NCBI GenBank assembly: GCA_021816775.1
Contig: JAKAXA010000007.1
Span: 1 to 64,000, forward strand
Source: Pseudomonadota bacterium
GTDB lineage: Bacteria; Pseudomonadota; Gammaproteobacteria; Steroidobacterales; Steroidobacteraceae
Length of the DNA: 64,000 nt
Direction: 5' to 3'
The notes below the pieces were generated by a model that saw only the letters and a list, made by a program, of their open reading frames with translations, had not been told where the DNA came from and did no database searches. The first letter of the stretch is position 1; every line of letters begins with the position of its first letter. A program made the translations under genes and the position numbers. This document shows positions 29,294 through 48,276 of the stretch, piece after piece.

Positions 29294-29349
29294 CGGAGTC
29301 CCCTCGCTCGATGTGCGGCGCAGCGCCGCACGTGCGATCCATCGTCGGA

Positions 29350-29363
29350 TGGTAGCGATATCA
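29350..29363. promoter_or_regulatory. LacI-type operator TGGTAGCGATATCA (esterase operon)
   Basis: A copy of the 14-bp regulon palindrome, 57 bp upstream of the SGNH esterase start. Together with the copy at 29425 it forms a pair 75 bp apart centre to centre, close to seven helical turns, in the divergent esterase/xylB promoter region, which would permit DNA looping. Confidence 0.75.
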
Positions 29364-29424
29364 CGCCGCGGTCACAACCGTACGAACGCGCGCCGCCCCG
29401 CGCTCGCAATTGACAGTCCCAGAC

Positions 29425-29438
29425 TGATATCGCTACCA
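29425..29438. promoter_or_regulatory. LacI-type operator TGATATCGCTACCA (xylB)
   Basis: A copy of the 14-bp regulon palindrome, about 31 bp before the proposed xylB start. It would block the xylB promoter or early transcription when bound. Confidence 0.75.
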
Positions 29439-29468
29439 TTCCAGACCTTTCGTCACCGGAGCGGCGCT

Positions 29469-30926
29469 CTGTACCTCGGTATCGACATCGGCACCTCCAG
29501 CGTCAAGGCGGTGCTGCTCGATGAGCACGGCGCCATCGCTGCGCAGAGCTCCGCCCCGCTCGAGGTGAGCCGCCCCGCGCCCGGGTTCTCGGAGCAGGAT
29601 CCGCGGCAGTGGTGGGAGGCGACCGTGCGCGCCGTGCAGACGGTGCCGGCGGCGATGCGCTCGCGCGTACGGGCGCTGGGCCTGTCCGGACAGATGCACG
29701 GCGCGACTTTGCTCGATGAGCGCGACCGGCCGCTGCGCCCCGCAATCCTGTGGAATGACGCCCGTTCCGCCGAGGAATGCCTCGAGCTCGAGCGGCGCGA
29801 GCCGGCCGCGCGGACCATCACCGGCAACATCCTGATGCCGGGCTTCACCGCACCGAAGCTGCTGTGGGTGGCCCGGCACGAGCCCGAGGTCTTCCGGCGC
29901 ACCGCGCACGTTTTGTTGCCGAAGGACTACGTTCGACTGTGTCTCACGGGCGAGCGCGTCAGCGATATGTCCGATGCGGCCGGAACCGGCTGGCTCGACG
30001 TCGCTCGCCGCGAGTGGTCGGACGCCATGCTCGCCGCGAGCGATCTGTCCCGCGCGTACATGCCGCGGCTGGTCGAGGGCTCGAGCCCATCCGCAACGCT
30101 GACGGCCGCGGCGGCCGAGCAACTCGGTGTGCCGCCGGTGATTGTTGCCGGCGGCGGCGGCGACAACGCGGCGAGCGCGGTCGGGCTTGGCGTGGTGCGC
30201 GCCGGAGAGGCGTTTCTCTCGCTCGGCACCTCGGGGGTGCTGTTCGTGGTGACCGACCGCTTCCGCCCCAACCCCGAGCGCGCCGCGCACGCGTTCTGCC
30301 ATTGCCTGCCGCAGCGCTGGCACCAGATGTCGGTGATGCTGAGCGCGGCCAGCACCCTCGAGTGGATCGCGCAGATCGTCGGCGAGGCGGATCTCGGCAA
30401 GCTGGCCGCAGGCGCCGAAGCGCACGGACTCACGCGGCACTCGCCGCTGTTTCTGCCGTATCTCACCGGTGAGCGCACGCCGCACAACGATCCGCATGCG
30501 CGCGGCGTGCTCTTCGGACTGCGGCCCGACACGATGCCCGCGGAGCTCACCGCGGCGGTGCTCGAGGGCGTCGCCTTCGCGTTCGCCGACGGGCTCGATG
30601 TGCTCACCGAAACGAGCGACCCGGTCGGCGAGATCAGCATCACCGGCGGCGGCGCGCGCGTGCCGTACTGGGGCCGTCTGATCGCCGCGGCGCTGCGGCG
30701 GCCGCTGACGTATCGGGAGGGCGGGGAAGTCGGAGCGGCCCTCGGTGCGGCCCGGCTCGGGCAGCTCGCCGCCGGCGAGGGCACCGAAGCCGACGTGTGT
30801 GTCGCGCCCCCGGTGGTGCGCATCGTCGAGCCCGACGCGCCGCTCGCGGCGCTGCTCGCGAGCCGCCGCCGCGTATTCCAGCGCCTCTATCGCGACCTGA
30901 AGGGCGCGTTCGCCGAATTCGCCTGA
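29469..30926 (+). CDS. xylB: Xylulokinase
   Basis: A FGGY-family kinase phosphorylating D-xylulose to xylulose-5-phosphate. The N-terminal phosphate motif YLGIDIGTSSVKAVL, the LGLSGQMHG segment, LWNDAR, the GGGGDNAASAVG and LGTSGV region, and the C-terminal SITGGGAR are intact. At 485 residues it equals the family norm. No ATG, GTG or TTG occurs in frame near the expected start. A CTG at 29469 gives LYLGIDIG and is preceded by GGAG at about 7 bases, so an unusual CUG start is proposed; the frame is open further upstream but only through the operator. Operator at 29425. Confidence 0.93.
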   Translation: MYLGIDIGTSSVKAVLLDEHGAIAAQSSAPLEVSRPAPGFSEQDPRQWWEATVRAVQTVPAAMRSRVRALGLSGQMHGATLLDERDRPLRPAILWNDARSAEECLELERREPAARTITGNILMPGFTAPKLLWVARHEPEVFRRTAHVLLPKDYVRLCLTGERVSDMSDAAGTGWLDVARREWSDAMLAASDLSRAYMPRLVEGSSPSATLTAAAAEQLGVPPVIVAGGGGDNAASAVGLGVVRAGEAFLSLGTSGVLFVVTDRFRPNPERAAHAFCHCLPQRWHQMSVMLSAASTLEWIAQIVGEADLGKLAAGAEAHGLTRHSPLFLPYLTGERTPHNDPHARGVLFGLRPDTMPAELTAAVLEGVAFAFADGLDVLTETSDPVGEISITGGGARVPYWGRLIAAALRRPLTYREGGEVGAALGAARLGQLAAGEGTEADVCVAPPVVRIVEPDAPLAALLASRRRVFQRLYRDLKGAFAEFA

Positions 30927-30939
30927 GGCGCCGGCCTGA

Positions 30940-30980
30940 CACCGGGCGCGGCGGCGCAAGGCCCGCCGGCGACCCCGGTG
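30940..30980. terminator. Hairpin between xylB and the GH3 gene
   Basis: A two-part inverted repeat lies in the 112-bp gap between the convergent xylB and GH3 genes: outer arms CACCGGG/CCCGGTG and inner arms CGGCGG/CCGCCG around an 8-base loop. It likely acts as a shared transcript end; no T-run is seen. Confidence 0.5.
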
Positions 30981-31038: not shown

Positions 31039-33396
31039 TCAGCCCGTCAGCTGCAGCGTGGCCGACTTCAGGTGCACGGAGTCGGGCCCCACCATGACGC
31101 GCACCGTGCCGGGCTCGACCACATCGCGCAGGTTCTCGTTCCAGATCGCGAAAACCTTGGGGCGCAGCGTGAAGCGCACCTCGGTCGACTCCCCGGGCGC
31201 GAGCCACACCCGCTTGAAGCCCTTGAGCTCCTTGACCGGCTCGGTGACCGAGGTCACCAGCTCGTGCACGTACAGCTGCACCACCTCGCTGCCGGACACC
31301 TTGCCGGTGTTGCGCACCTCGACCGTCACGGTCACCGCCCCGTGCGGCGGCAGGCTTGCCGCCGAGAGCTGCGGGCGTCCGACGTGGAAGGTCGTGTACG
31401 AGAGGCCGTAGCCGAACGGGAACAGCGGCGAGTTGTTCGCGAACAGATAGCCCCGGTGTGCGCTCGGCTTCTCGTCATAATTGTAAGGCACCATGCCCAC
31501 CGAGCGCGGAATGGTCACCGGCAGTTTTCCGCCCGGATCGGTCTTGCCGAACAGCACGTCGGCCATCGCGGTGCCGCCCGCCTGGCCGAGGTACCAGCCC
31601 TCGAGCAGGGCGTTGGCGCGCGGCAGGATGCGGTTGACCGTCACCGGACAGCCGTTGATCAGCACCACCACCACCGGCTTGCCGAGCGCGAAGATCGCGC
31701 GGGCGAGCCGGTTCTGCTGGGCCCGCAGCGCGAGCGTGTCGCGATCGCCGAGATGGTCGGTCGCCCAGCCCTCGCGGCACAGCGCGCCGCTGGTGCCGAG
31801 CACCAGCACGACGGCATCAGCGCGGCGCGCGACGGCGACCGCGTGACGGATGCGCGGCAGGTTCGCCGCCGCGCTTTCCAGCACTTCGCGGTTGGTGTCC
31901 TTGTTGCCGTAGGCGAGCAGCTTCACGCCCCTGGCGTAGAGGATCCGCACCCGCTTGCCGACGTAGTTGCGGATGCCCTGCAGCACGCTCACCGGGCGGC
32001 TCGGGATGCCGGAGTAGCCGCCGAGGCGCACCGGCGCGGCGTTCGGCCCGATCACCGCCAGGGTTTTCAGCCGGCCGACCTTAAGTGGCAGCGTGCCGTC
32101 GTTCTTCAGGAGCACGATCGATTCCTGCGCCGCCCTCAATGCCAGCGCGCGCGCCTGGGCATCATCGGTGATCCTGCGCGCGTATCGGACACTCGCGTAA
32201 GGATGATCGAACACCCCGGAGAGGAACTTCAGGCGCAGCACCCCTGCGACCGCCGCGTTGATCTGGCGCATCGTCACTTTGCCCTCGGCGAGCGCCTGCG
32301 GCAGGTGTTGGAATGCCTGGCCGTCGGGAAAGTCGACATCCACCCCTGCATCGAGGGCGCGGGCGGCCGCATCGGTGAGATTGGGCACAACGTGGTGCAG
32401 CGTCATCAGCTGCTCGATGCCGAGGTAATCGCTCACCACGATGCCCTTGAAGCCCCAGTCCTTGCGCAGCACCTGCTGGAAGAGCCACGGATTGGCGGTG
32501 CAGGGGATGCCGCCGATCTCGTTGTAGGCGGCCATGACGACCTGGGCGTGCGCCTGCTGGATTGCGGCGTGGAAGGCCGGCAGATACATCTGCAGCAGCG
32601 TGCGGCGCGTCAGCTCCACCGGCCCGACGTTGGTGCCGGCCTCGGGCACCCCGTAGCCGGCCATGTGCTTGAGCACGGCCAGCACGTGTCCGGGCGCGAG
32701 CGGCAGCGTCGCGCCCTGCAGACCGCGCACCTCCGCGACCCCCATGCGCCCGACCAGGTAGGGATCCTCGCCGAAGGTCTCCTCGATCCGTCCCCAGCGT
32801 GGATCGCGGCCGAGATTGATCACGGGTGTGAGCAGCATGTCCACGCCCACCGCGCGCGCCTCGCGCGCCACGACGGTGAACACGCGGGTGATGAGCGCCG
32901 GGTCCCAGGTGCTCGCCAGCGCGATCGCCTGCGGGAAGCTGGTCGAGCCGCGCGCCACGTAGCCATGCAGGCCCTCAGCGTGAAACAGCGTCGGGATGCC
33001 GAGCCGCGTATGCTCGAGGTCGTAGCGCTGCACGGCGTTGACGAAGTGGATGGTGCCGGCGAGGCTGCGCAGCCGGTACTGGTTCGGCGCATAATCGCCG
33101 GGGCGGGCCAGCTGGCCGATGCCATCAGGGAACGTCCGCGCCGCCTTGGCCGGATCGAAATCACCGGCGGCATTTTCGATCTCGGGCTTGTTCTCCCAGA
33201 TCGAGCTGATCTGCTCGATCTTCTGCGCGAGCGTCATGCGGGCGAGCAGATCCTTCACACGGGCCGCCACGGGCGCGCGTGGATCCTTGTAGAGGGGCGC
33301 GCTCGCGGCGCGCGCCCCGGGAGCGGCCAGGGAGGCGATCAGCGCTGCGGCCGCGAGCGCGCCGCGGCCGCGCGCACGAATGTTGGATCCCGTCAC
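31039..33396 (-). CDS. GH3 beta-xylosidase/beta-glucosidase, exported
   Basis: A 785-residue family GH3 retaining glycosidase. A signal peptide ends near ARA (residue 30). Seen are the GRDPRWGRIEETFGEDP substrate-site segment (197-211), K243-H244, and the nucleophile D323 in GIVVSDYLG of the TIM barrel. The alpha/beta sandwich domain and a C-terminal fibronectin-III-like domain (VTVEVRNTGKVSGSEVVQLYV) follow. Given its operator and neighbours it probably trims xylo-oligosaccharides from the non-reducing end; beta-glucosidase activity cannot be excluded. It is monocistronic, with an operator 27 bp upstream of the start. Confidence 0.9.
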   Translation of the reverse strand: MTGSNIRARGRGALAAAALIASLAAPGARAASAPLYKDPRAPVAARVKDLLARMTLAQKIEQISSIWENKPEIENAAGDFDPAKAARTFPDGIGQLARPGDYAPNQYRLRSLAGTIHFVNAVQRYDLEHTRLGIPTLFHAEGLHGYVARGSTSFPQAIALASTWDPALITRVFTVVAREARAVGVDMLLTPVINLGRDPRWGRIEETFGEDPYLVGRMGVAEVRGLQGATLPLAPGHVLAVLKHMAGYGVPEAGTNVGPVELTRRTLLQMYLPAFHAAIQQAHAQVVMAAYNEIGGIPCTANPWLFQQVLRKDWGFKGIVVSDYLGIEQLMTLHHVVPNLTDAAARALDAGVDVDFPDGQAFQHLPQALAEGKVTMRQINAAVAGVLRLKFLSGVFDHPYASVRYARRITDDAQARALALRAAQESIVLLKNDGTLPLKVGRLKTLAVIGPNAAPVRLGGYSGIPSRPVSVLQGIRNYVGKRVRILYARGVKLLAYGNKDTNREVLESAAANLPRIRHAVAVARRADAVVLVLGTSGALCREGWATDHLGDRDTLALRAQQNRLARAIFALGKPVVVVLINGCPVTVNRILPRANALLEGWYLGQAGGTAMADVLFGKTDPGGKLPVTIPRSVGMVPYNYDEKPSAHRGYLFANNSPLFPFGYGLSYTTFHVGRPQLSAASLPPHGAVTVTVEVRNTGKVSGSEVVQLYVHELVTSVTEPVKELKGFKRVWLAPGESTEVRFTLRPKVFAIWNENLRDVVEPGTVRVMVGPDSVHLKSATLQLTG

Positions 33397-33422
33397 CGGA
33401 TCAACCCCCCGAAACCCAAAAC

Positions 33423-33436
33423 TGGTATCGCTATCA
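33423..33436. promoter_or_regulatory. LacI-type operator TGGTATCGCTATCA (GH3 gene)
   Basis: An excellent copy of the 14-bp regulon palindrome, 27 bp upstream of the GH3 start codon. With the copy at 33520 it forms a second operator pair in a divergent promoter region. Confidence 0.76.
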
Positions 33437-33519
33437 TAGCGGACTCCGCCCGGCCGTAAACAAAAATCGCGCGCGTATGCTGCGCCGGCCAGAACCTGAG
33501 CGAGGTTGCAGCCCTAAAA

Positions 33520-33533
33520 TGGGAGCGATACCA
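33520..33533. promoter_or_regulatory. LacI-type operator TGGGAGCGATACCA (hexuronate permease operon)
   Basis: A copy of the 14-bp palindrome with one deviation (G for T at the fourth base), 38 bp upstream of the permease start. Its centre is 97 bp from that of the GH3 operator. Confidence 0.7.
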
Positions 33534-33570
33534 TACGCAACTCATTCTGCGTGCAAGGCACTCGCCGAAC

Positions 33571-34866
33571 ATGGCCGCCGAGGCTCAGTCTGTGCGGGAG
33601 GTCACTGGGCGCCTCGGCGGTTACCGGTGGCGCATCTGCGCGCTGCTGTTCTGGGCCACCACGCTCAACTATATCGACCGGCAGGTGCTCGGGGTACTCG
33701 CCCCGGCGCTCGGGCACGCACTCGGTTGGACGCAGATCGATTACGGCTACATCGTCGCGGCGTTCCAGATCGCCTATGCGATCGGGCTGGTGTTCGCCGG
33801 CGCGCTCATCGACAAGATCGGCACGCGTCTCGGCTTCGCGCTGTTCATCGCGATTTGGAGCGTGGCGGCCGCGAGCCACGCCCTGGCGCGCACCGTGCTC
33901 GCTTTCGCGGCGGCGCGCTTCATGCTCGGGCTCGGAGAGGCGGGCAATTTCCCCGCGGCGGTGAAGACCGTGGCCGAGTGGTTCCCGCGGCGCGAGCGAG
34001 CGTTCGCGACGGGCCTGTTCAACGCCGGCACGAACGTCGGGGCGGTGATCGCCCCGCTCGTGGTGCCGATCGCAGTGGCGCTGTGGGGGCTGCGCTCGGG
34101 TTTCCTGCTCACGAGCGGGCTCAGCGCCTTGTGGCTGGTCACCTGGCTCATCGTCTACCGCCCACCCGCCGAGCATCCGCGCGTCACGGCGCGGGAGCTG
34201 GCCTACATCGGCAGCGATGCCGAGGAGCCCGCGAGCGCCCCTCACGTGCGGTGGCGCGAGCTGCTGCGGCATCGCCAGACCTGGGCGTTCGTGGCCGGCA
34301 AGTTCCTCACCGACCCGGTCTGGTGGTTCCTGCTGTTCTGGCTGCCGAAGTATCTCAGCCATCGCTACGGGCTCGACCTTACCGCGCTCGGCCCGCCGCT
34401 GATCGCGGTCTACCTGATGGCGGATGCCGGCAGCATCGGCGGCGGCTGGCTCGCCGGGCGCCTGATGCGCCTCGGCTGGAGCGTCAATGCGGCGCGCAAG
34501 GGCGCGATGCTGCTGTGCGCGCTCGCGGTGGTGCCGGTGACCTTCACCTCCTCCGTGCATCACCTGTGGTTCGCGGTCGGGCTCATCGGGCTCGCCGCAG
34601 CGGCTCATCAGGGCTGGTCGGCGAACCTGTTCACCATAACCTCGGACCTGTATCCGAGTGCGGCGGTCGCCTCGGTCGTCGGGCTCGGTGGGTTCGCCGG
34701 AGCGCTCTCGGGCGCGCTGGTCTCGACGGCGGTGGGCTTTCTGCTGCAGGCCACCGGCAGCTACGCGCTGCTGTTCACCATCGCCGGCGGCATGTATCTG
34801 GTGGCGCTCGCGGTGATTCAGCTGCTTGCGCCGCGCCTCGCGCCGGTGCGCCTCGCTGCCGCGTGA
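33571..34866 (+). CDS. exuT: MFS hexuronate permease (ExuT-like, ACS family)
   Basis: A 431-residue major facilitator transporter with 12 predicted helices. The N-terminal NYIDRQVLGVLAPAL, DKIGTRLGFALF (loop 2-3 motif), and FMLGLGEAGNFPAAVKTVAEWFP segments match the anion:cation symporter family that includes ExuT. It likely imports glucuronate or galacturonate with protons. It is followed 63 bp later by mannonate dehydratase, and the operator at 33520 precedes it, which supports the hexuronate assignment. Confidence 0.86.
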   Translation: MAAEAQSVREVTGRLGGYRWRICALLFWATTLNYIDRQVLGVLAPALGHALGWTQIDYGYIVAAFQIAYAIGLVFAGALIDKIGTRLGFALFIAIWSVAAASHALARTVLAFAAARFMLGLGEAGNFPAAVKTVAEWFPRRERAFATGLFNAGTNVGAVIAPLVVPIAVALWGLRSGFLLTSGLSALWLVTWLIVYRPPAEHPRVTARELAYIGSDAEEPASAPHVRWRELLRHRQTWAFVAGKFLTDPVWWFLLFWLPKYLSHRYGLDLTALGPPLIAVYLMADAGSIGGGWLAGRLMRLGWSVNAARKGAMLLCALAVVPVTFTSSVHHLWFAVGLIGLAAAAHQGWSANLFTITSDLYPSAAVASVVGLGGFAGALSGALVSTAVGFLLQATGSYALLFTIAGGMYLVALAVIQLLAPRLAPVRLAAA

Positions 34867-34929
34867 GCGCGGTGCGAGAATCCACGGTCAACCGCCGCGG
34901 TGGCGCGGCCAGGTTCGGAGTCGTCAGCC

Positions 34930-36180
34930 ATGGTCAACATATCGTCTGAGCCGCAGGGCTCCTCCCGGGAACGGGAGATCGTCGCGGCGCGCGTGATCGT
35001 CACCTCGCCGGGTCGCAACTTCGTGACGCTCAGGATCGAGACCCGCTCAGGGGTCTGGGGCCTCGGCGATGCGACGCTCAACGGCCGCGAGCTGGCGGTC
35101 GCCGCCTACCTCGAGCAGCACGTGATCGCGAATCTCATCGGGCGCGATGCGGGGCGGATCGAGGACACGTGGCAGTTTCTCTACCGCGGCGCGTACTGGC
35201 GGCGCGGCCCGGTCACCATGACGGCCATCGCCGCGGTGGACGTGGCCCTGTGGGACATCCTCGGCAAGATGGCGGGACTGCCCCTCTATCGGTTGCTCGG
35301 CGGGCGCAGCCGCGAGCGCGTGCTGGTGTACGGACACGCGAGCGGCCGGGACATCGAGGGGGCGAGCGCCGAGGTGGGCCGCTTCATCGCGGAGGGTTAC
35401 CGTGCCGTTCGCGCCCAATGCGGCGTGCCGGGGCTCGCCAAGCCCTACGGCGTGTCGCGGATGAAAAACGCCTACGAGCCGGCCGAAAGCGAGCTGCCGC
35501 TCGAGACCGTCTGGTCGACGCCGGGGTACCTCGAGATCGTGCCGCGCCTCTTCGAGCGGCTGCGTGCCGATCACGGGCGCGAGGTCGAGCTGCTGCACGA
35601 TGCGCATCACCGCCTCACGCCCATCGAGGCGGCGCGTCTGGCGCGCGACCTCGAGCCGTACCGCCTCTTCTGGCTGGAGGATGCGACGCCGGCGGAAAAC
35701 CCGGACGGCTTCGAGCTCATCCGGCGCCACTCGGTGACGCCGCTCGCAGTGGGCGAGGTGTTCAATTCCATCTTTGATTGCCGCGCGCTGCTCGAGCGCC
35801 AGCTGATCGACTACATCCGCACCACGATCGTGCACGGCGGGGGCATCACCCACGTGCGGCGCATCGCCGACCTCGCCGCGCTGCACCGCGCGCGCACGGG
35901 CTTTCACGGCGCCACGGATCTCTCGCCGGTCACCCTCGGCGCGGCGCTGCATTTCGACACGTGGGTGCCGAACTTCGGCATCCAGGAGTACATGCGTCAC
36001 TCGGATGAGACCGATGCGGTCTTTCCGCACGACTACACGTTCCGCGATGGCTGTCTGCACTGCGGCGAGAGCCCCGGCCACGGCGTCGGGCTCGACGAGC
36101 AGCTCGCCGCGCGCTTCCCGTACAAGCCCAGACAGCTGCCGATCGCGCGTCTGCCGGACGGGACGATGTGGGATTGGTGA
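34930..36180 (+). CDS. manD: D-mannonate dehydratase (ManD, enolase superfamily)
   Basis: Converts D-mannonate to 2-keto-3-deoxygluconate. This 416-residue enolase-superfamily enzyme has the ManD marks: catalytic D224 and H226 in HDAHHRL, metal ligands E250 ([11 protein letters not shown]) and E276 (AVGEVFNS), and the C-terminal LPDGTMWDW. An RAQCGVPG segment lies near residue 162. The start at 34930 is the better of two in-frame starts. It belongs to the RspA-like group, some of which have low activity, but the full glucuronate pathway around it supports a real catabolic role. It replaces UxuA, which is not present. Confidence 0.91.
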
Positions 36181-36247
36181 GGGGCGCCGCGGCGCGGGCC
36201 GCGGCGGCATCGGCAGTGCTGAGTACAGTGAAGAGTGGGGGATCATC

Positions 36248-38194
36248 ATGACCATGCGAAACAACCGCGCCGCCGCACTGGTGGCCGCTGTCTGCTGCAG
36301 CCTCGGCCTCGGCGCGGCCCTGGCCCGGCCGGCGCTCGCGGCCGAGCGGCCGTACAAGAACTTCAGTGTGGCCGTGTATATTCCGGTGACCTCCACCCGT
36401 GCGCTCGCCAATCGGGAGACCTTGCGCCGCCAGTTCCAGCGCATCTGGAGCCAGGTGCACTTCAACAAGGTCTACCTCGAGGTGTACCGCGATCAGGTGT
36501 TTGCCGACCCGGCAACGCTCGATCGGATCGCCGCGTTCTTCCGCCGCCGGGGCATCACCGTCGACGGCGGGATCACGCTGTTCGCGGGTCGCAACAAGTA
36601 CAACCAGTTCAATTCGTTCGACTTCGAGAAGCCGCATGACGTCGCCATGTGCGAGCGCGCGGTGCGCATGGCTGCGCGGCATTTCAACACCGTGATCCTC
36701 GATGACTTCACGTTCTTCAACACGCGCAGCAACGCCGACATCAGGGCCAAGGGCTCGCAGAGCTGGACGCGCTACCGTCTGCGCAAGATGCGCTGGGTGG
36801 CCAAGCGCCTCATCATCGGCGCGGCGCGCAAGGTCAACCCGCACGTCAAGGTGATCATCAAATACCCGAACTGGTACGAGCATTTCCAGGGCCTGGGCTT
36901 CGACCTCGACCGGGAGGCGAAGATGTTCAGCGGCATCTACACCGGCGATGAGACGCGCGACCCAGTGCACACCGCGCAGATGCTGCAGCAGTACGAGAGC
37001 TATCTGATCTACCGCTATTACCACAACATCCGCCCGCACGCGGCCGACGGCGGCTGGGTCGACACGTTCGGCGACCTCTACGCCGACCGCTACGCCGAGC
37101 AGCTCTGGGATACGCTGTTCGCCAAGGTTCCGCAAATCACGCTGTTCAGCTGGCCGCAGCTGGCGGTCCCCGAGCCGGTCACCCCCGGCAACCGCGACGC
37201 CTGGGCGGCGGACCGGACCAGCTTCAACTGGGACGCCATGGTGCGCTCGTTCAAGGCGCCGCCGGGAACGGAGGCCGTGCCGGGCTGGGCCCGGGTCGCC
37301 GGCTACGCGCTCGGACAGGTCGATGCCTTCCTCGGCAAGCTGGGCAAGCCCATCGGAGTGGCCAGCTACAAGCCGTTCCAGTCGAGCGGCGAGGACTTCC
37401 TGCAGAACTACCTCGGCAACATCGGCATCCCGATCAACCTGATGCCGCACTACCCGACGCACGCCCGGCTCGTGCTGCTCACTGAGGAGGCCGCGGCCGA
37501 CCCACATCTGGTACCGAAGATCGAGGCGAGCCTCAGGAGCGGTGCCGACGTCATCATCACCTCGGGTCTGCTGCATGCGCTCGAGCGCCAGCATCGCGGC
37601 ATCAGGAACGTCGCCGAGATCACCTACACGGGGCTGCCGATCGCCGTGCGGCATTACCTCGGCAGCATCACCGGCGGGGCCACCGCGAGTCTGGACGTGC
37701 CCGGTGAGCGGGCCGCGCGTGTCATCTTTCCGGAAATCCGCTTCTATACCAACGATTCGTGGCCGGTCATCCAGGGCGAGGCGGCCGCGCACGGCGTGCC
37801 GGTTCTGCTCATGACCGGCTATTCGCGGGGGCAGCTCTACGTGCTCGACGTGCCGAGCAACATGGGGGACGTCTATCGCCTGCCGGAGCCGGTGCTGAAC
37901 ACCTTGCGGGGCTACCTGCTCGCGCGCTTCCCCGTGCGCATCAACGCGCCGGCGCACGTGGCGCTGTTCACCTACAGCAACGACACGCTCATCGTCGAAT
38001 CGTACCTGCCGCGGCCGGTCACGGTGCGCATCTTCGTGCACCACGGCGCGCAGCGGCTCGTCGATCTGGTCTCGGGGCGCGCCGTGCTGCCGGCGCCGAT
38101 CGTCACCCCGAGCCCGCTGCCGAGCGAGCAGGGCCAGGCGAGCTTCGTGGTGCGCCTCGCACCGCACTCGTATCGGGCTTTCGCGGTGCGCTGA
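36248..38194 (+). CDS. Secreted protein of unrecognised family, possible new glycoside hydrolase
   Basis: I do not recognise this family. The 648-residue protein has a signal peptide (cleavage near LAA, residue 32). Residues 38-310 alternate strands and helices like a TIM barrel: KVYLEVYRDQ, ITVDGGITL, VILDDFTFF (D152-D153), KVIIKYPNWYE, SGIYTGDETRD (D234, E235), ITLFSWPQ. Residues 355-500 look like an alpha/beta domain as in GH42 trimerisation modules (IGVASYKPF, ADVIITSGLL). The C-terminal 100 residues look like a beta-sandwich. This architecture and the carboxylates at strand ends suggest a retaining or inverting glycosidase. It follows manD by 67 bp behind a GGGGG ribosome site, in the LacI-type regulon, so the substrate is probably glucuronoxylan-derived. 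No function is claimed. Confidence 0.7.
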   Translation: MTMRNNRAAALVAAVCCSLGLGAALARPALAAERPYKNFSVAVYIPVTSTRALANRETLRRQFQRIWSQVHFNKVYLEVYRDQVFADPATLDRIAAFFRRRGITVDGGITLFAGRNKYNQFNSFDFEKPHDVAMCERAVRMAARHFNTVILDDFTFFNTRSNADIRAKGSQSWTRYRLRKMRWVAKRLIIGAARKVNPHVKVIIKYPNWYEHFQGLGFDLDREAKMFSGIYTGDETRDPVHTAQMLQQYESYLIYRYYHNIRPHAADGGWVDTFGDLYADRYAEQLWDTLFAKVPQITLFSWPQLAVPEPVTPGNRDAWAADRTSFNWDAMVRSFKAPPGTEAVPGWARVAGYALGQVDAFLGKLGKPIGVASYKPFQSSGEDFLQNYLGNIGIPINLMPHYPTHARLVLLTEEAAADPHLVPKIEASLRSGADVIITSGLLHALERQHRGIRNVAEITYTGLPIAVRHYLGSITGGATASLDVPGERAARVIFPEIRFYTNDSWPVIQGEAAAHGVPVLLMTGYSRGQLYVLDVPSNMGDVYRLPEPVLNTLRGYLLARFPVRINAPAHVALFTYSNDTLIVESYLPRPVTVRIFVHHGAQRLVDLVSGRAVLPAPIVTPSPLPSEQGQASFVVRLAPHSYRAFAVR

Positions 38195-38209: not shown

Positions 38210-39655
<1,446 letters not shown>

Positions 39656-39721: not shown

Positions 39722-41968
39722 TCAGTGTGGCACGGGCGAGTCATCCGGCGGACAGGCCGGCCCCGCCCCCGGGGTGCCCTCCACGAAGGGGATGCAGAAC
39801 GCCTCGTAGGCCTTCAGCGGCTCAGGCGGCGGCGCGACTCCCGCCGGCAGCGGCCGGCGCGAGATCGACTGGAAGTAGGCGATGCTCGCATCGCGCCACC
39901 ATTCGGCGTCCTGCTGCTGGATGGCGAGAAATGCGGCCGTCAGGCGGAAGCGCTGCGGGTCGACGTAGCGCGCGAGTCTCTGCCAGGTCCTGCGCATGCG
40001 CTTGACCGCAGCAACGCCGCGCGCGTAGTGCAGCACCAGGGAGTCCCACAGCGTGCGGCCGGAGCGCATGCGGTAGGTCCACGGCAGGTGATGAAACCAC
40101 AGCAGCAGATTCTCCGGACAGTGTCTGAGGCTGGCGAACTCGGCGGCCACGTGCGGCGCGTACTGGCTGACGGCGTCGCTGCCGCTCGCCGTGCGGTCGA
40201 AGCCAATGCCCGTGGCGTCCGCGCGGCTGTAATACGTGCTCGACCAGTCCGGCGGCATGTGCGGCCCCGGGGCGACCCAGGGGCCGGGGCCGAAGTGCGT
40301 GCCGGCGGCCATCTGGCTGGCCAGTCCGAGCGGGTCCATGTAATCGACCACCGCCTCGCGCGAGCCCATCATCATGCGCACCACGGGGCGCACGAAGGCG
40401 GCGTTGTTTGTGAAAGTCATGCGCACCCATTGCGCGGCGATGGCGCGCGCCGAGGCGTCGGGACTCCAGGCGAGCCGGCCGAACACGTACCAGTTGGACT
40501 GGTTGAAGATCGACCCGCACCAGTTGCGGTCCGAGCCGATGTTGGCGACACCGGCGATGCCGGTCTGACGCTGCCCGTAGAGCGAGCCGTCGATCACGCG
40601 CGCCACCGTCGAGCCGCGCCCGCGCGCCCAGGTGTCGGCGCGCAGCGCCTCCTCGAAGAGCGTGCCGAGATAGACGAGGCTCGTCTGCTGGCCGAGGTAT
40701 TCCTTGGTGATCTCGAGCTCGAGCATCAGGTTCGTCTTGGGCATCGCGCCGAACAGCGGATGAAACGGTTCGCGCGGCTGGAAGTCGAGCGGGCCGTTCT
40801 TCACCTGCAGGATCACGTTGCGGTCGAATTTCCCATCGAGCGGCTTGAAGATATCGTAGGACTGCTTGACCCGGTCCTCGGAATGCGGGTTGGTCGAGTA
40901 GACGAACGCGCGCCACATGACGATGCCGTGGTAGGGCGCGAGCGCGCGGGCGAGCAGGTTTGCGCCCTGGGCCTGCGTGCGCCCGTAACGCTCAGGACCC
41001 GGCTCGCCCTCGGAGTCCGCCTTCATCAGGAAGCCGCCAAAGTCGGGCACCTCGCGGTAGATCGCGGCGACCTTGCGGCGCCACCACGCCTGCACCGCCG
41101 CATCGAGCGGGTCGGCGCTGCTCAGCCGGCCCACCGTGATGGGCGCGCTGAAGGGCACGGACAGATAGACACGGATGCCGTAGGGCCGCAGCACGCCGGC
41201 GAGCGCGGCAACCTTGGCGAGGTACAGCGGCGTCAGCACATACGGGCTGGCATTGACGTTGTTCAGCACCACGCCGTTGATGCCGATCGAGGCACAGGCG
41301 CGAGCAAAGTCCGTGTAGCGCGGCGAGAGATACTGCGGCAGCTCGTCCCACTTCCAGATCGAGTCCCCGGCGTAGCCGCGCTCGACGCTGCCGTCGAGAT
41401 TGTCCCAGAAGTCGAGTATGCGATGGCGGATCCTCGGGCGCGAGACGATAGCGAGCGCGCCGATCGGCCGGCGCGTCTGGATCCGCCGCAGGAAGCGGAA
41501 CGCGCCATAGAGCACCCCGACGTCGCTGTTGCCGGCAATGACCGTGGCGCGGTGGCCCCGCACGGTGACGGTGCGGATCACGTAGCCTTCCCGGCCGACC
41601 CGCCGCAGGCCGAGCCGCAGCGCGCGGATCAGCGGCGAGGCGTGGGGGGTGCCGAACAGGATCGCCCCGTCGGCGGTGACCGAGCGCGCGCTCGGCAGCC
41701 GCCGTCCGAGCATGCCCGCCAGTCCTCGCTCGAGTTCCGCGCGCGCCGCGCGCAGCGTCGGGGAGAGCGCACCGCTGGGGACGAGCTCGGCGGCCGAGCG
41801 GCGATAGCGAGCGAGCCACGCACCGTGCACCGGGACGTAGCGCAGCCACAGACGGTAGCCGTCATCGGCGTGCGCCCGCGGGGCGAGGCTGAGCCCCGTC
41901 AGCAGCCCGGCCGCCGCGATCAGCAGCGCCGCGGCGCGGCGTCCGGTAAAATCCGTCAGCTGCAACAT
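39722..41968 (-). CDS. aguA: Alpha-glucuronidase (GH67), exported
   Basis: Releases glucuronate or 4-O-methylglucuronate from the non-reducing xylose of xylo-oligosaccharides (GH67, inverting). The 748-residue protein starts at 41968 behind a strong GGAGG site. A signal peptide covers about 1-33 (ALLIAAAGLLTGLSLAPRAHA). The family hallmark MKADSEGEPGPERYGR is intact, with the DFWDNLDGSVERGYAG segment and the C-terminal helical region (FHHLPWTYRMRSGRTLWDSL). Export is unusual only in that many GH67 enzymes are cytosolic; here it should act in the periplasm. The divergent operator at 42005 serves this gene and the oxidoreductase gene. Confidence 0.94.
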   Translation of the reverse strand: MLQLTDFTGRRAAALLIAAAGLLTGLSLAPRAHADDGYRLWLRYVPVHGAWLARYRRSAAELVPSGALSPTLRAARAELERGLAGMLGRRLPSARSVTADGAILFGTPHASPLIRALRLGLRRVGREGYVIRTVTVRGHRATVIAGNSDVGVLYGAFRFLRRIQTRRPIGALAIVSRPRIRHRILDFWDNLDGSVERGYAGDSIWKWDELPQYLSPRYTDFARACASIGINGVVLNNVNASPYVLTPLYLAKVAALAGVLRPYGIRVYLSVPFSAPITVGRLSSADPLDAAVQAWWRRKVAAIYREVPDFGGFLMKADSEGEPGPERYGRTQAQGANLLARALAPYHGIVMWRAFVYSTNPHSEDRVKQSYDIFKPLDGKFDRNVILQVKNGPLDFQPREPFHPLFGAMPKTNLMLELEITKEYLGQQTSLVYLGTLFEEALRADTWARGRGSTVARVIDGSLYGQRQTGIAGVANIGSDRNWCGSIFNQSNWYVFGRLAWSPDASARAIAAQWVRMTFTNNAAFVRPVVRMMMGSREAVVDYMDPLGLASQMAAGTHFGPGPWVAPGPHMPPDWSSTYYSRADATGIGFDRTASGSDAVSQYAPHVAAEFASLRHCPENLLLWFHHLPWTYRMRSGRTLWDSLVLHYARGVAAVKRMRRTWQRLARYVDPQRFRLTAAFLAIQQQDAEWWRDASIAYFQSISRRPLPAGVAPPPEPLKAYEAFCIPFVEGTPGAGPACPPDDSPVPH

Positions 41969-42004
41969 GATTCCTCCGCGACGCATTGCCGGTGCATTGC
42001 AAAA

Positions 42005-42018
42005 TGATAACGCTACCA
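42005..42018. promoter_or_regulatory. LacI-type operator TGATAACGCTACCA (GH67-uxaC and UxuB-like operons)
   Basis: A single copy of the 14-bp palindrome in the 64-bp divergent gap, 36 bp from the GH67 start and 14 bp from the oxidoreductase start. One site can therefore shut both glucuronate operons. Confidence 0.75.
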
Positions 42019-42032
42019 TTAGTCTCGCTTCA

Positions 42033-43499
42033 ATGACACGGCTGCGGCTCAGCGAGGCGACGCTCACCCAGGCGCGGCCGGGTGCCGCCCGGCCGGGCTA
42101 TGTGCGCGAGGCCTGCCGCGTCGGCTGGGTGCATTTCGGACCGGGCGCATTCCATCGGGCGCACCAAGCGTACTACGCGGACCGCCTGCTCGAGCGCGAT
42201 CCGCGCTGGGCGATCAGCGCCGTTTCGCTGCGCAGCGCCGGGGCACGCGAGGCGCTCTCGAGGCAGGATTACCTCTACTGCCTCGCCGAGCTCGGCGGGG
42301 AGCTGCAGGTTCGCATCATCGGCGCGCTGCGCGAGATCCTCGTCGCGCCCGCCGACCGCGGCGCCGCGTTGGTCCGCCTCGAGGCTCCCGAGACCCGCAT
42401 CGTCACGCTCACCGTGACGGAGAAGGGCTACTGTCTCGGCCCCGACGGGCAGCTCGATCCGAGCCACCCCGACATCGCCCACGATCTGGGCGCGGCCGAG
42501 CCCGCGCGCAGCGTCATCGGATTTCTCGCCGAGGGACTGCGGCGGCGGCGCGCGAACGGGCACACTCCCTTCGCCGTGGTGAGCTGTGACAATCTGCCGG
42601 ACAACGGAGCGACGCTGCGCGCGGCGGTTGCGGCGTTCGCCGCGCGCCGCGATCGCTCGTTCGCCCGTTGGATCGAGTCCGAGGTCGCTTTCCCGCGCAC
42701 CATGGTCGACAGCATCACGCCGGCCACCGACGCCGAGCTGATCGAGCGAGTCGCCGAGGCGAGCGGGCTCGAGGACGCATGGCCGGTGCAGCGTGAGCGC
42801 TTCACGCAATGGGTCATCGAGGATCTGCCCGAGGTGCGCGTGGCCGACTGGGCCTCGGTCGGCGTGACGCTGGCGGCGGACGTGTCGGTGTACGCCCGCG
42901 CCAAATTGCGCCTCGTCAACGGCGCGCACTCGACGCTCGCCTACATCGGGCTGCTGCGGGGCCGCCGCACGGTGGCCGAGGCGATGCGCGATGTGCCGCT
43001 CGCGCGCTTCGTCGAGCGGCTGATGAGGGAGGACATCACGCCGAGCCTGCACGGTCCCGGGGGGCTCGAGCTGTCCGGCTACATCGATGCGACGCTCGAG
43101 CGCTTGCGCAATCCGGGCGTGCGCCATCAACTCGCGCAGATCGCCTGGGACGGCTCGAAGAAGCTTCCGGTGCGGCTGCTCAGCACCATGGCCGAGGCGC
43201 TCGCGGCCGGCCGGCCTCTCGAGCGCCTCGCGCTGCCCATCGCGGCCTGGATGCGCTTTGTCGTCGGGCGGGCCCGCGCCGGGGAGCCGTTGACCGATCC
43301 TGCGGCCGTTCAGCTCCTCGCCCTCGGCCGCGCCTGTACCGAGGAGCCCGAGCGGGATGTTGCCCGTTTTCTCACCCTCGAGGACACCTTCGGCTCGCGC
43401 GTGGCGGCGGAACCGGCGTTCGTGCGCGCGATGGTGAACGCCTATCGTGCGCTCGGTCCGGGCGGCGCGATTCCTGCGGCGCTGGGCGGTGGCGCATGA
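42033..43499 (+). CDS. uxuB: D-mannonate oxidoreductase (fructuronate reductase)
   Basis: A polyol-specific long-chain dehydrogenase of 488 residues (UxuB of E. coli has 486), reducing D-fructuronate to D-mannonate with NADH. Seen are VGWVHFGPGAFHRAHQAYYADRLL split across the Rossmann start, the VSCDNLPDNG motif, the family segment VDSITPATD, and the catalytic Lys in RAKLRLVNGAHSTLAYIG. Substrate choice between fructuronate, tagaturonate and mannitol rests on context with uxaC and manD. An aldose epimerase gene follows after 65 bp. Confidence 0.91.
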   Translation: MTRLRLSEATLTQARPGAARPGYVREACRVGWVHFGPGAFHRAHQAYYADRLLERDPRWAISAVSLRSAGAREALSRQDYLYCLAELGGELQVRIIGALREILVAPADRGAALVRLEAPETRIVTLTVTEKGYCLGPDGQLDPSHPDIAHDLGAAEPARSVIGFLAEGLRRRRANGHTPFAVVSCDNLPDNGATLRAAVAAFAARRDRSFARWIESEVAFPRTMVDSITPATDAELIERVAEASGLEDAWPVQRERFTQWVIEDLPEVRVADWASVGVTLAADVSVYARAKLRLVNGAHSTLAYIGLLRGRRTVAEAMRDVPLARFVERLMREDITPSLHGPGGLELSGYIDATLERLRNPGVRHQLAQIAWDGSKKLPVRLLSTMAEALAAGRPLERLALPIAAWMRFVVGRARAGEPLTDPAAVQLLALGRACTEEPERDVARFLTLEDTFGSRVAAEPAFVRAMVNAYRALGPGGAIPAALGGGA

Positions 43500-45389: not shown

Positions 45390-45483
45390 CCGCGCCACCA
45401 GAGCGTAGAGGAAGGAGCCACGGCCGTTCAAGCCGTCCCGCCGCGCCGGACGCCAGTCGCCGGACCCCGGCGCGACGGCCGCA

Positions 45484-45497: not shown

Positions 45498-45641
45498 TGG
45501 GCGCCGGACACGCGACGCCGGCCGCCCTGCACCGGGCGGTGGCGGTTTGTATGATCCCGGCGCGCGGCGGGCGTGTGCTAAAGTTCCACACCGCCTGCGT
45601 TGACGTACAACGATAATTTGGCAGGATCACCCAGAGGCGCG

Positions 45642-46709
45642 ATGAACAAACCGGCGCGTAAATCCCGCAGTGGCGCTCGCCGCAGCGTGACCATCAAGGA
45701 TGTCGCGCGTTACGCCGGCGTCTCGCCGATGACCGTCTCGCGGGTGGTCAACGGCGGCCAGTATGTGAGCGACGCCACGCGGCAGACGGTGATGCAGGCG
45801 GTTCGCCAGCTCGGCTACTCGCCGAACCTCGCCGCGCGCAATCTCGCCAGCGCGCGCGGGGAGCGCATGGGGCTGCTCTACGGCAACCCGAGCGCCTCCT
45901 ATCTGAGTGAATTTCTGGTCGGCGCGCTCGATGCGGCGACCCGGCACGGCGTGCAGCTCGTGCTCGAGAAGTGCGAGATGACTCCCGCGGCCTCGCGCCG
46001 CGCGGTGCGGCGGCTGGTCGCCGGCGGCGTCGTCGGCGTGGTGTTGCCGCCGCCGCTGTGCGAGTCGGCGGTGATCCGCGCCGAGCTGCAGGCCGCGCGC
46101 ATGCGCATCGTCGCGGTCGCCGCTGCCCGGCCGCCGGCCGACGTGATGTGCGTCAGCATCGATGACTTCGCCGCGGCGCGCGAGATGACCCGGTATCTGT
46201 TGGCGCTCGGACACACGCGCCTGGGGTTCATCAAGGGCCACCCCAACCAGACGGCCAGCGAGGAGCGCTGGCGCGGCTTCACGGCGGCGGTCCAGGAGCA
46301 CGGCAACCTGCCCACGCCGCGCGTCGAGCAGGGCTTCTTCACGTTTCGCTCCGGGCTCGATGCGGCGCGCAAGTTGCTCTCCGGGGCGCCGCTGCCGAGC
46401 GCGATTTTCGCCAGCAACGACGACATGGCCGCCGCAGTGATGGCCGAGGCGCACCGTCGCGCGCTCGAGGTGCCGAACGACCTGACGGTGGTCGGCTTCG
46501 ACGACAGCCTGATTGCGGCCAATATCTGGCCGGGGCTCACCACCATCCATCAGCCGATCGCGCAGATGGCCGGCGAGGCGGTCGACCTGTTGGTGGCCTC
46601 GGTGCGCGGCGGCAAGCGCGGCGCGGCCGCCGAGCCCGTGCATCGCCTGGTTGCCCACGAGTTGATCACACGCGAGTCGGCCGCGCGCCCGAAGAGCGCC
46701 GCCGCCTGA
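45642..46709 (+). CDS. LacI-family transcriptional regulator of the xylan/glucuronate regulon
   Basis: A 355-residue LacI/GalR regulator. The N-terminal HTH and hinge (VTIKDVARYAGVSPMTVSRV, then NLAARNLAS) precede a periplasmic-binding-like effector domain ending with DLTVVGFDDS and LTTIHQPIAQMA. The start at 45642 follows an AGAGG site. Being the only LacI-type gene in the window, it is the natural binder of the 14-bp palindromes found before the xylan and glucuronate genes. The effector is unknown; xylose, a glucuronate, or an aldobiouronic acid is likely. Repressor action is inferred from operator positions near promoters. Confidence 0.92.
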   Translation: MNKPARKSRSGARRSVTIKDVARYAGVSPMTVSRVVNGGQYVSDATRQTVMQAVRQLGYSPNLAARNLASARGERMGLLYGNPSASYLSEFLVGALDAATRHGVQLVLEKCEMTPAASRRAVRRLVAGGVVGVVLPPPLCESAVIRAELQAARMRIVAVAAARPPADVMCVSIDDFAAAREMTRYLLALGHTRLGFIKGHPNQTASEERWRGFTAAVQEHGNLPTPRVEQGFFTFRSGLDAARKLLSGAPLPSAIFASNDDMAAAVMAEAHRRALEVPNDLTVVGFDDSLIAANIWPGLTTIHQPIAQMAGEAVDLLVASVRGGKRGAAAEPVHRLVAHELITRESAARPKSAAA

Positions 46710-46747
46710 GCTTCCCTGCCGCTTGACAAGCCCGGCCCCCCGGGGGA

Positions 46748-46776: not shown

Positions 46777-48276
46777 ATGAGCGAAGGCAATACCGGGCTC
46801 GTGGTCGCGCTGACGGCTGCGGCGACGCTGGGCGGCCTGCTGTTCGGCTACGACACGGCGGTGATCTCGGGCGTGACCAGCGCGATCACCCACAATTTCG
46901 TCGCGCCGCGCCATCTCAGCGAGGCGCATGCGAACCTCCTCTCGGGGCTGGCCATCGCCATCGCGCTGCTCGGCTGCGTGCTCGGCGCGGGCATCGCCGG
47001 TCCGGTCTCGACGCGCATCGGGCGCCGGGCGGGGCTGCTGATCGCCGGAGTGCTGTTTCTGGTGTCCTCCCTCGGGGCGGGCTATCCGGAGTTCTTCTGG
47101 AGCCTCTTCGGGGCGGTGGGTGACCAGGCGCTGCCGGCCTTCCTCTTTTACCGCGTGATGGGCGGCACGGCCATCGGCATGGCCTCCATGCTGGCCCCGA
47201 TGTACATCGCCGAGGTCGCCCCGCCCGAGATCCGCGGCATGCTGGTTACCTTCCAGCAGATCGCCATCGTGGTGGGCATCAATCTGGTCTATTTCGTCAA
47301 CTGGCTGATCCAGTCCGGCCACAGCCACGCCTATCTGATGAACACCGCCTGGCGGCACATGCTCGCCTCGGCGGCGATCCCGGCGGCGCTGCTCATCGTG
47401 TTCATGCTGCTCGTGCCAGAGACGCCGCGATTCCTCGTGCTGAAGGACCGCGACGCCGAGGCGCTCTCGCTCCTGGAGCGGCTGGTTGGGCGCGCGAGCG
47501 CGCAAGCGACGCTGCGTGAGATCAAGGAGACGCTGATCGAGCACACCCGCCCGCTGCGCTCCTTCGGCGCCCTGGTGCTGGTGGTCGGGATCCTGCTGTC
47601 GGTCTTCCAGCAGCTGGTCGGGATCAACGCGGTGCTGTACTACGCGCCGCGCATGTTCGAGAACATGGGCGCCTCCACCAACCAGGCGTACTGGGAGTCG
47701 GCCACCTTCGTCGGGGTGACGATGACGGCCTTCACGCTGGCGGCCACCTTCACGGTGGACAAGCTCGGGCGCAAGCCGCTGCTCGTCGTCGGGGCGTTCG
47801 TCATGGCCGCCGCGATGATCGTGCTCGGCTGGCTGTTCGACCTGCACCTGGTCAGCGCCGGCGCTCATGCCGCCGCCGGCGGCGCGAGCGGTGCCTCCTA
47901 TCTTGCGATCGCGGCGGTGGTGGTCTACATCATGGGCTTCTCGTTTTCCTGGGGACCGGTGGTGTGGGTGATGCTGGCGGAGATCTATCCGAACTCGATC
48001 CGCGGCAAGGCCATGTCGATCGCCATCGGCGCGCAGTGGATCATGAACTTCGTCGTCTCGCTCACCTTCCCCATGCTCGACGGCAGCGCCTACTTGAACC
48101 GGCACTTCAACCACGGCTTCGCCTACTGGCTCTACAGCGCCGGGGCGATTCTCGCGGCGCTGTTCGTGCTGCGCTACGTGCCCGAGACCAAGGGCCGCAC
48201 GCTCGAATCGATCCAGGAGCTGTGGCATCCGGCGCGGACGCCGCGCAGGGACGCCTCGGAAGCGGCATCGTCCTGA
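46777..48276 (+). CDS. xylE: Sugar:proton symporter (XylE-like MFS)
   Basis: A 499-residue sugar porter with 12 helices. Family marks: GGLLFGYDTAVISG in helix 1, RIGRRAG between helices 2-3, PETPRFL after helix 6, QQLVGINAVLYYAPRMF in helix 7, and PETKGRTLESI at the C-terminus. The close likeness to XylE/GalP-type porters and the operator directly upstream indicate xylose uptake. It follows the lacI-type gene but has its own operator. Confidence 0.9.
   Translation: MSEGNTGLVVALTAAATLGGLLFGYDTAVISGVTSAITHNFVAPRHLSEAHANLLSGLAIAIALLGCVLGAGIAGPVSTRIGRRAGLLIAGVLFLVSSLGAGYPEFFWSLFGAVGDQALPAFLFYRVMGGTAIGMASMLAPMYIAEVAPPEIRGMLVTFQQIAIVVGINLVYFVNWLIQSGHSHAYLMNTAWRHMLASAAIPAALLIVFMLLVPETPRFLVLKDRDAEALSLLERLVGRASAQATLREIKETLIEHTRPLRSFGALVLVVGILLSVFQQLVGINAVLYYAPRMFENMGASTNQAYWESATFVGVTMTAFTLAATFTVDKLGRKPLLVVGAFVMAAAMIVLGWLFDLHLVSAGAHAAAGGASGASYLAIAAVVVYIMGFSFSWGPVVWVMLAEIYPNSIRGKAMSIAIGAQWIMNFVVSLTFPMLDGSAYLNRHFNHGFAYWLYSAGAILAALFVLRYVPETKGRTLESIQELWHPARTPRRDASEAASS

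Follow-up and report, generated by a model that had tools for sequence, protein, structure and literature searches.

A secreted TIM-barrel protein behind xyl-box-like sites in Steroidobacteraceae, a candidate glycoside hydrolase without a credible match in Pfam, NCBIfam or PDB sequences

We analysed a 64,000-nucleotide stretch of DNA from a Steroidobacteraceae genome (contig JAKAXA010000007.1), referred to here as the window, and focused on one of its genes, which encodes a secreted protein of 648 residues (the target). The target is the third gene of an operon in which an MFS transporter gene and a gene for a ManD-like dehydratase come first, and a 67-base gap separates it from the latter. 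The operon and the target gene comprise the following features.

33571..34866, + strand: MFS transporter, first gene of the operon (Pfam MFS_1; hexuronate type from context only)
34900..36180, + strand: ManD-like dehydratase of the enolase superfamily, upstream of the target (Pfam MR_MLE_N, MR_MLE_C)
36230..36241, + strand: purine-rich ribosome-binding stretch, preceding the target ATG (sequence)
36248..38194, + strand: target gene, secreted 648-residue protein (open reading frame and relatives)
36248..36340, + strand: signal peptide, residues 1-31, cleavage ALA/A at 31/32 (sequence reading by eye)

The name ManD is the label given to 34900..36180 by an earlier reading of the sequence alone (the original prediction); Pfam supports MR_MLE_N and MR_MLE_C. 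The same prediction proposed a secreted protein of 648 residues, and the open reading frame (ORF) lies where it was placed, running from an ATG at 36248 to a stop codon that ends at 38194, with high third-position GC. The signal peptide reads as Sec type by eye, and the best local alignments of relatives start at residue 36 or slightly beyond. Judged by sequence comparison, the ORF is a genuine gene, chance being ruled out because 263 of 278 pattern-matched stretches code for relatives. An antisense reading, as a long minus-strand ORF, was rejected since the relatives share the target's own frame.

Predicted fold, conserved residues and family searches

The AlphaFold2 model, built from a 78-row alignment of relatives, scored high (predicted local distance difference test, pLDDT, 90.5; predicted template-modelling score, pTM, 0.91) and consists of an eight-stranded TIM barrel, a flavodoxin-like middle domain and a beta-rich C-terminal domain. 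A model of the barrel only reached a pLDDT of 85.7. The domains and the conserved positions discussed below map to the window as follows.

36341..37282, + strand: TIM-barrel domain, residues 32-345, eight strands (AlphaFold models, Foldseek)
36701..36706, + strand: D152-D153, end of barrel strand 4, invariant (AlphaFold, alignments)
36860..36862, + strand: K205, end of strand 5, motif KYPNW, invariant (AlphaFold, alignments)
36950..36958, + strand: E235-T236-R237, end of strand 6, with E235 and R237 invariant in 78 of 78 (AlphaFold, alignments)
37061..37063, + strand: D272, end of strand 7, motif WVD, invariant (AlphaFold, alignments)
37286..37600 (approximate), + strand: flavodoxin-like middle domain, resembling the trimerisation domain of GH42 (AlphaFold, Foldseek)
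37619..38191 (approximate), + strand: C-terminal beta-rich domain (AlphaFold)

A TIM barrel, a middle part like that of glycoside hydrolase (GH) family 42 and a C-terminal beta domain had been proposed from the sequence, and the confident model together with Foldseek agrees with this. In a whole-chain Foldseek comparison with the PDB, the GH42 structure 3tts came first (expectation value, E, 7.4e-20) and the GH164 structure 7oms had an E of 3.5e-19; these matches have template-modelling (TM) scores of approximately 0.6, a root-mean-square deviation (rmsd) of at least 7.5 and 8-12% identity. With the barrel only, the GHL10 protein Cwp19 (5oq2) was nearest (E 4.4e-8, TM 0.60), followed by GH164 and GH35. 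On the evidence of the model, the GH42-type build is present, but there is no close barrel relative. At the level of fold, the barrel, trimerisation domain and beta domain of GH42 are all found, and the modelled protein probably forms a trimer.

This build is common to GH42, GH164 and a GH5 enzyme (PMC8233224). The GH42 beta-galactosidases (3tts, 4oif), whose three-domain build is a known homotrimer, give the best whole-chain fold match; they differ from the target in identity (10-12%) and in a strand-4 Asn-Glu that is Asp-Asp in the target. The GH164 beta-mannosidase Bs164 (6t5o, 7oms) resembles the target in its whole-chain barrel, flavodoxin-like and beta build, whereas identity is 8-10%, a sequence-profile link was not found, and in the target Asp-Asp (strand 4) and Asp (strand 7) stand in place of the Glu residues of clan GH-A. 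Cwp19, at 10% identity, is alike in its barrel and also carries an Asp-Asp pair at the strand-4 position, D195-D196, which corresponds to Asn160-Glu161 of a GH42 enzyme (PMC5765458). Its strand-7 nucleophile position is Gly where the target has Asp, and the portions of that source available to us report no strand-6 Glu, whereas the target has E235 (PMC5765458). The GH5 enzyme Op5Man5 shares the build as a GH42-type trimer and differs in that its strands 4 and 7 carry the canonical Glu156 and Glu281 (PMC8233224).

We found that all 78 sequences share E78 (on strand 2), D152, D153, K205, E235, R237 and D272. The original prediction had named D152-D153 and D234-E235 as carboxylates at strand ends. 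D152, D153 and E235 stand, and D234-E235 does lie at a strand end; D234 is not conserved (Thr in 64, Asp in 12 and Asn in 2 of 78) and was rejected as a key residue since most members have Thr. The invariant D272 on strand 7, K205 and R237 were missing from that list. A wider set of 16 sequences, which takes in subfamilies with identities of 23-25% as well as a short form (approximately 390 residues) lacking most of the post-barrel region, keeps D152, D153, R177, N197, K205, W209, E235, T236, R237, W270, D272 and Q285 in 16 of 16. Because the residues stay invariant even in the short form without most of the later domains, the conserved site is placed in the barrel. A second copy in the target's own genome, which is in neither alignment, has 45% identity and stands alone among housekeeping-looking genes (judged by eye). 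It carries Phe for W209, Tyr for D238 and Glu for D503, and keeps the other 17 checked positions.

The target has the TIM barrel of clan GH-A; its strand 4 ends in an invariant Asp-Asp and its strand 7 in an invariant Asp, both in place of Glu, with the strand positions taken from predicted secondary structure rather than superposition. In the model, D153 would take the acid/base place of clan GH-A and D272 would lie near the nucleophile place, with E235 as an extra carboxylate. We infer that the catalytic carboxylates are drawn from D152/D153, E235 and D272, and the likeliest pair would join D153 either to D272, with Asp in the GH-A positions, or to E235.

We compared the family with Pfam (newest models 2025), NCBIfam (June 2026) and PDB sequences. 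The target matched no Pfam family at E up to 10 and nothing in NCBIfam, and PDB sequences gave nothing credible (a single match, E 0.46). A profile of the 78 relatives found no GH among PDB sequences at E up to 10 (a single match, E 1.1). Scanned singly against Pfam, the 78 members matched no GH catalytic family; the best match was to SupH-like_C, a sucrose-hydrolase C-terminal domain, and was weak and confined to one of the 78 (E 0.0081). A 16-member scan of Pfam and NCBIfam returned weak, scattered matches only (best E 0.095), and one distant member matched a leucine-zipper family at E 0.00032, under that family's cut-off. With matches so weak and scattered, a known Pfam, NCBIfam or PDB family was rejected as the identity of the target. 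Neither Pfam Glyco_hydro_42 nor the GHL10 family (PF02638) matched the target or the 78 members. Remote kinship with the GH35-type (DUF5597), GH31 and GH67 proteins of neighbouring genes was rejected on hhalign probabilities of 0.3, 0.2 and 0.1 of 100, obtained with small neighbour alignments of 7, 7 and 4 sequences, respectively. A topic-word search of open-licence titles and abstracts, in which the chosen words may miss a mention, found no description of the family. Neither a described family nor a fold other than a barrel turned up in Pfam, NCBIfam, PDB sequences, the predicted fold or the Foldseek comparison, in keeping with the original prediction, which recognised no family.

CAZy and dbCAN lie outside the libraries compared, and newer families share the GH42-type build (GH164; the GH5 enzyme Op5Man5, PMC8233224). 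The target could belong to a recent CAZy family (roughly GH136 onward) not yet represented in Pfam, NCBIfam or the PDB, and it would then be new only to the libraries searched. We regard this as unlikely given that no credible Pfam, NCBIfam or PDB-sequence match appeared, even for a profile against the PDB, and that open-licence titles and abstracts, within the reach of our topic words, describe no such family.

Operator sites upstream of the target gene and its relatives

The genes of xylose use in Caulobacter and Xanthomonas carry a conserved palindrome (PMC1790865), and the published xyl-box TGGTAGCGCTAACA is bound by XylR (PMC10380989). The XylR regulon comprises xylose, xylan and TonB-receptor genes, and the available portions of its descriptions do not name the target family (PMC10380989, PMC1790865, PMC7198004). 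We found that a LacI-type operator motif, ATGATANCGNTATCAT, occurs in the window at 10 sites with up to 3 mismatches versus 0.66 expected, a number reached by 0 of 100 shuffles; the motif was derived from the window itself, so this enrichment is partly circular. The ten LacI/XylR-type sites (13714, 15489, 15598, 29349, 29424, 33422, 33519, 42004, 45483 and 46747) mark a regulon of xylose and xylan genes over approximately 33 kb. The published 14-mer TGGTAGCGCTAACA, a test independent of the window, gave 19 matches, counted over both strands, at 11 positions, versus 2.26 matches expected, again with 0 of 100 shuffles; it recovers 7 of the 10 sites and misses 15489, 15598 and 45483. Two sites lie before the target operon, and others accompany regulatory and transport genes.

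33422..33437, no strand: xyl-box-like operator between GH3 and the operon (window motif and published xyl-box)
33519..33534, no strand: another xyl-box-like operator, 36 bases ahead of the start codon of the MFS gene (window motif and published xyl-box)
45600..46709, + strand: LacI-family regulator, candidate XylR, with an operator upstream at 45483 (Pfam; site by window motif only)
46777..48276, + strand: sugar transporter, preceded by an operator at 46747 (Pfam; both motifs)

Site 42004 lies between GH67 and a mannitol-dehydrogenase-type gene, and 15489 and 15598 precede a TonB-receptor gene. The original prediction had put the operon with manD in a xylose/xylan regulon, and both motifs bear this out in the form of operator sites.

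We next questioned whether relatives of the target carry such sites in the 450 bases before their aligned start. The own genus was defined by identity, not taxonomy, as 17 loci at 77% identity or above plus paralogues. Outside it, TGGTAGCGCTAACA was found with 3 or fewer mismatches upstream of 22 of 31 dereplicated proteobacterial relatives, versus 0.6 in shuffled sequence and 35 of 316 other ORFs at the same loci (Fisher p 7.5e-13, a rough value, as loci and ORFs are not independent). At 2 or fewer mismatches the counts were 15 of 31 and 19 of 316. The 31 loci remain after fourteen near-duplicates were removed by hand and L026 was placed with the other phyla, since its gene order and tree position join FCPU426; one other-phylum locus was lost because its upstream sequence was too short. 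L026 is a contig of a metagenome-assembled genome (MAG) titled Proteobacteria and shares gene order and tree position with the FCPU426 contigs L020 and L023, a probable binning or naming error.

The degenerate window motif, counted across all phyla without dereplication, was found before 15 of 79 relatives at 2 mismatches, versus 0.22 in shuffled sequence and 21 of 750 other ORFs, and before 28 of 79 at 3 mismatches, versus 2.22 and 59 of 750. Five fresh loci, four from the Caulobacter family sample and one from that of Sphingomonas, all have a site at 2 or fewer mismatches. In the Caulobacter family sample as a whole, 10 of 10 genes have a site at 3 or fewer mismatches and 9 of 10 at 2; in the Caulobacter loci, where the lone copies carry the xyl-box, the neighbours look non-carbohydrate by eye. 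The lone paralogue in the target's own genome has a perfect site to the degenerate motif, starting 119 bases before its aligned start. Because lone Caulobacter copies and the lone paralogue carry sites, the xylose-regulon tie in Proteobacteria follows the gene itself and not only its neighbours. New here are the operon behind sites that match the published xyl-box of Xanthomonas and Caulobacter, and such sites upstream of proteobacterial relatives. From these sequence motifs we infer that XylR would control the target gene.

A related palindrome, ATGACANCGNTGTCAT, lies between ManD and the target gene at L008, L011 and L013, approximately 250 bases before the aligned start, and this form also precedes the TonB-receptor gene of the window (15598). 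It is perhaps the site of a second regulator.

Genomic settings and distribution

Next to the operon, the window encodes the following proteins.

31039..33396, - strand: GH3, divergent from the operon (Pfam)
38210..39655, - strand: UxaC glucuronate isomerase, convergent with the target (Pfam)
39722..42067, - strand: GH67, the alpha-glucuronidase family (Pfam)

It also encodes an AXE1-type acetyl xylan esterase, a GCE-type glucuronoyl esterase, a GDSL esterase, a PfkB kinase, an FGGY kinase and a xylose isomerase-like protein. Of the 26 window ORFs scanned, a number that probably includes some shadow ORFs, none matched an endo-xylanase family. Elsewhere in the genome there is a GH10 match (G000:C24:195078-195922) in two overlapping frames (E 2.8e-26 and 5.6e-14), possibly a broken gene or an assembly error. 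ORFs were picked by a script from third-position GC and composition (against average amino-acid frequencies) rather than by a gene finder, and some neighbour labels come from clustering with a Pfam-scanned representative, not a gene-by-gene scan.

The family has 263 relatives in one scan of species-level genomes, most of them in MAGs. The best 80 of these 263, to which counts of 80 loci refer, are 43-94% identical and almost all full length. Record titles and the tree place the family in seven phyla, namely Pseudomonadota (alpha, beta and gamma), Myxococcota, FCPU426, Acidobacteriota, Verrucomicrobiota, Bacteroidota and Planctomycetota. Presence is patchy. Among 60 genomes in the search of close relatives, 17 have the gene, all of the same genus (17 of 37, the own genome included; 0 of 23 others), and the phylum sample has a family member in 2 of 299 genomes, the own genome included. 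The corresponding phylum samples of a Verrucomicrobiota and a Bacteroidota locus gave 10 of 337 and 6 of 345, with distant members and the centre genome counted, and the family-level samples gave 3 of 298 for Sphingomonas and 10 of 299 for Caulobacter. Plasmid records held no match to the family. Short forms of approximately 390 residues, with little past the barrel, occur in the Verrucomicrobiota sample (L125-L128 and L145-L148), and L146 adjoins a GH78 gene.

The order MFS-ManD-target is conserved in 14 of the 17 closest loci. Among the best 80 of 263 loci, homologues of ManD were found in 20 and of UxaC and GH67 in 8 each; this search was confined to homologues of genes present in the window, and many loci have short flanks. 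Where informative, the neighbours belong to xylan sets (GH67, GH3, GH43, GH8, GH39) or to sets of xyloglucan type (GH31, GH95, GH35). A genome of the Verrucomicrobiota sample has the order GH8-GH67-GH43-target (L140), two Verrucomicrobiota loci have GH31-target-GH39 (L069, L072), and in Sphingomonas a GH3 gene accompanies the relative. In Massilia (L064) the relative is followed by an Asp-box gene, GH95, a GH35-type gene and GH31, with labels partly from clustering. We take the Asp-box gene to be of GH74 type from BNR/Sortilin matches and a likeness of motifs, not from a GH74 model. This gene set resembles one reported from Xanthomonas as a xyloglucan locus, with GH74, GH31, GH35 and GH95 (PMC8245568). 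The window's own clade is mixed: L014 and L015 are xyloglucan-like, and L016 has GH67, UxaC and ManD.

Four further ORFs of the window deserve mention. The ORF at 29433-30959 (-), of 508 residues, has no Pfam match and tblastn relatives in 10 loci; an FGGY kinase lies on the opposite strand at 28878-30926, of which this ORF is probably a shadow. A DUF5597-domain protein is encoded at 13729-15432 (-), and its GH35-type relatives stand beside the target family in 11 of 80 loci, including Sphingomonas and Massilia. A tryptophan-halogenase family gene at 10693-12198 (-) has relatives in 11 of 80 loci, often with TonB receptors. Within the xylose cluster, 44490-45431 (-) is an inward-rectifier-type potassium channel gene.

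Proposed function and rival explanations

Our preferred explanation, which we consider reasonably probable, is that the target is an exported GH, of a family described in none of Pfam, NCBIfam and the PDB, that acts on xylose-bearing hemicellulose under the control of XylR. The target would be made when the LacI-type repressor XylR senses xylose. With its GH42/GH164-type three-domain build, the exported protein would act on xylose-bearing hemicellulose fragments, glucuronoxylan here and xyloglucan in some relatives. K205 and R237 would bind the sugar, which may be acidic or acetylated, and the enzyme would remove or expose a xylose-linked unit of oligosaccharides. A GH with such an action is the most likely function suggested by sequence and context. 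We favour hemicellulose because xylose is the common thread, running through the apparent regulation and through gene sets of both glucuronoxylan and xyloglucan type. Hydrolysis of glycosidic bonds is part of this explanation, and by analogy with its fold neighbours the target may be exo-acting.

Several observations weigh against this explanation. At 3 mismatches, 9 of the 31 proteobacterial relatives have no site, and in other phyla 1 of 33 has a xyl-box, with 0.8 expected. In the own-genus set a site lies near the gene in 6 of 20 cases, made up of 3 of 17 among the closest loci and all 3 paralogues; where the order MFS-ManD-target holds, in 14 of these 17 loci, the gene comes third and a promoter would be expected farther upstream. 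Many relatives have no evident carbohydrate neighbour. GH genes are few among 101 nearest-neighbour proteins from 61 loci outside the genus (among the 25 commonest of 111 families, GH31 5, Asp-box/Sortilin type 5, GH3 3, GH39 2 and GH43 2); this survey took proteins of at least 180 residues within 1500 bases, excluded 18 near-duplicate loci beforehand and left out 8 of 109 proteins, mostly TonB-receptor-like. Some distant members adjoin GH9, GH78 or epimerase genes, so substrates may vary. The Foldseek TM-scores of the model are moderate (approximately 0.6, with a whole-chain rmsd of 7.5 or more). Finally, K205 and R237 would equally suit a uronic-acid enzyme or a lyase, and at four Azospirillaceae loci (L038, L040, L041 and L043) a ManD homologue lies 8-10 kb downstream, which favours a role in uronate use.

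The last two points lead to the main functional rival, in which the target acts at the uronic acid end, on (methyl)glucuronosyl rather than xylosyl bonds, as, for example, a uronate lyase or a glucuronidase of alpha or beta type. The operon, which also encodes an MFS transporter and a ManD-like dehydratase, adjoins UxaC and GH67, its order is kept in most of the closest loci, and GH67 lies two genes upstream of the target in a genome of the Verrucomicrobiota sample, all of which would fit such an enzyme. However, homologues of UxaC and GH67 are found in only 8 of 80 loci and of ManD in 20, the alpha-glucuronidase step is already covered by GH67, and the xyloglucan-type and lone settings point to xylose. 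We give this rival a minor share of our confidence.

It is quite improbable that the target has no catalytic role and serves in binding or as a scaffold, its TIM barrel being degenerate: strands 4 and 7 do not end in the canonical GH-A glutamates, but four strand-end carboxylates, a Lys and an Arg are invariant down to 23% identity, unlike a degenerate site. Least probable of all, and rejected here, is the role that the original prediction suggested, an endo-xylanase supplying a missing step: the window, where xylan genes surround the target, indeed yielded no endo-xylanase family among its scanned ORFs, and the genome's GH10 match, split over two frames, may be broken, but that match exists, relatives accompany other backbone-cutting families, in xyloglucan-type loci with an Asp-box (GH74-like) gene or after GH8-GH67-GH43, and others stand between GH31 and GH39, and the fold neighbours GH42 and GH164 are exo-acting.

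Taking the GH acting on xylose-bearing hemicellulose further, we tentatively put forward, as possible rather than probable, that the target is the founding member of a new GH family, GH42-shaped, with an Asp pair on strand 4, a Glu on strand 6 and an Asp on strand 7 instead of the GH-A glutamates. It may be an overlooked though conserved part of the XylR regulon of Proteobacteria, kept even without a surrounding xylan or xyloglucan locus, and may cut a xylose-linked bond that is common to glucuronoxylan and xyloglucan breakdown and not covered by described enzymes. A family that record titles place in seven phyla, without a Pfam or NCBIfam match and with a confidently predicted fold, an unusual invariant site and a regulatory tie to xylose, marks a directly testable gap in hemicellulose breakdown, and the lone xyl-box copies in Caulobacter make a genetic test easy. 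If the family proves enzymatic, it would be the basis of a CAZy family and supply a step by which Caulobacter, Sphingomonas, Massilia and their relatives use xylan and xyloglucan.

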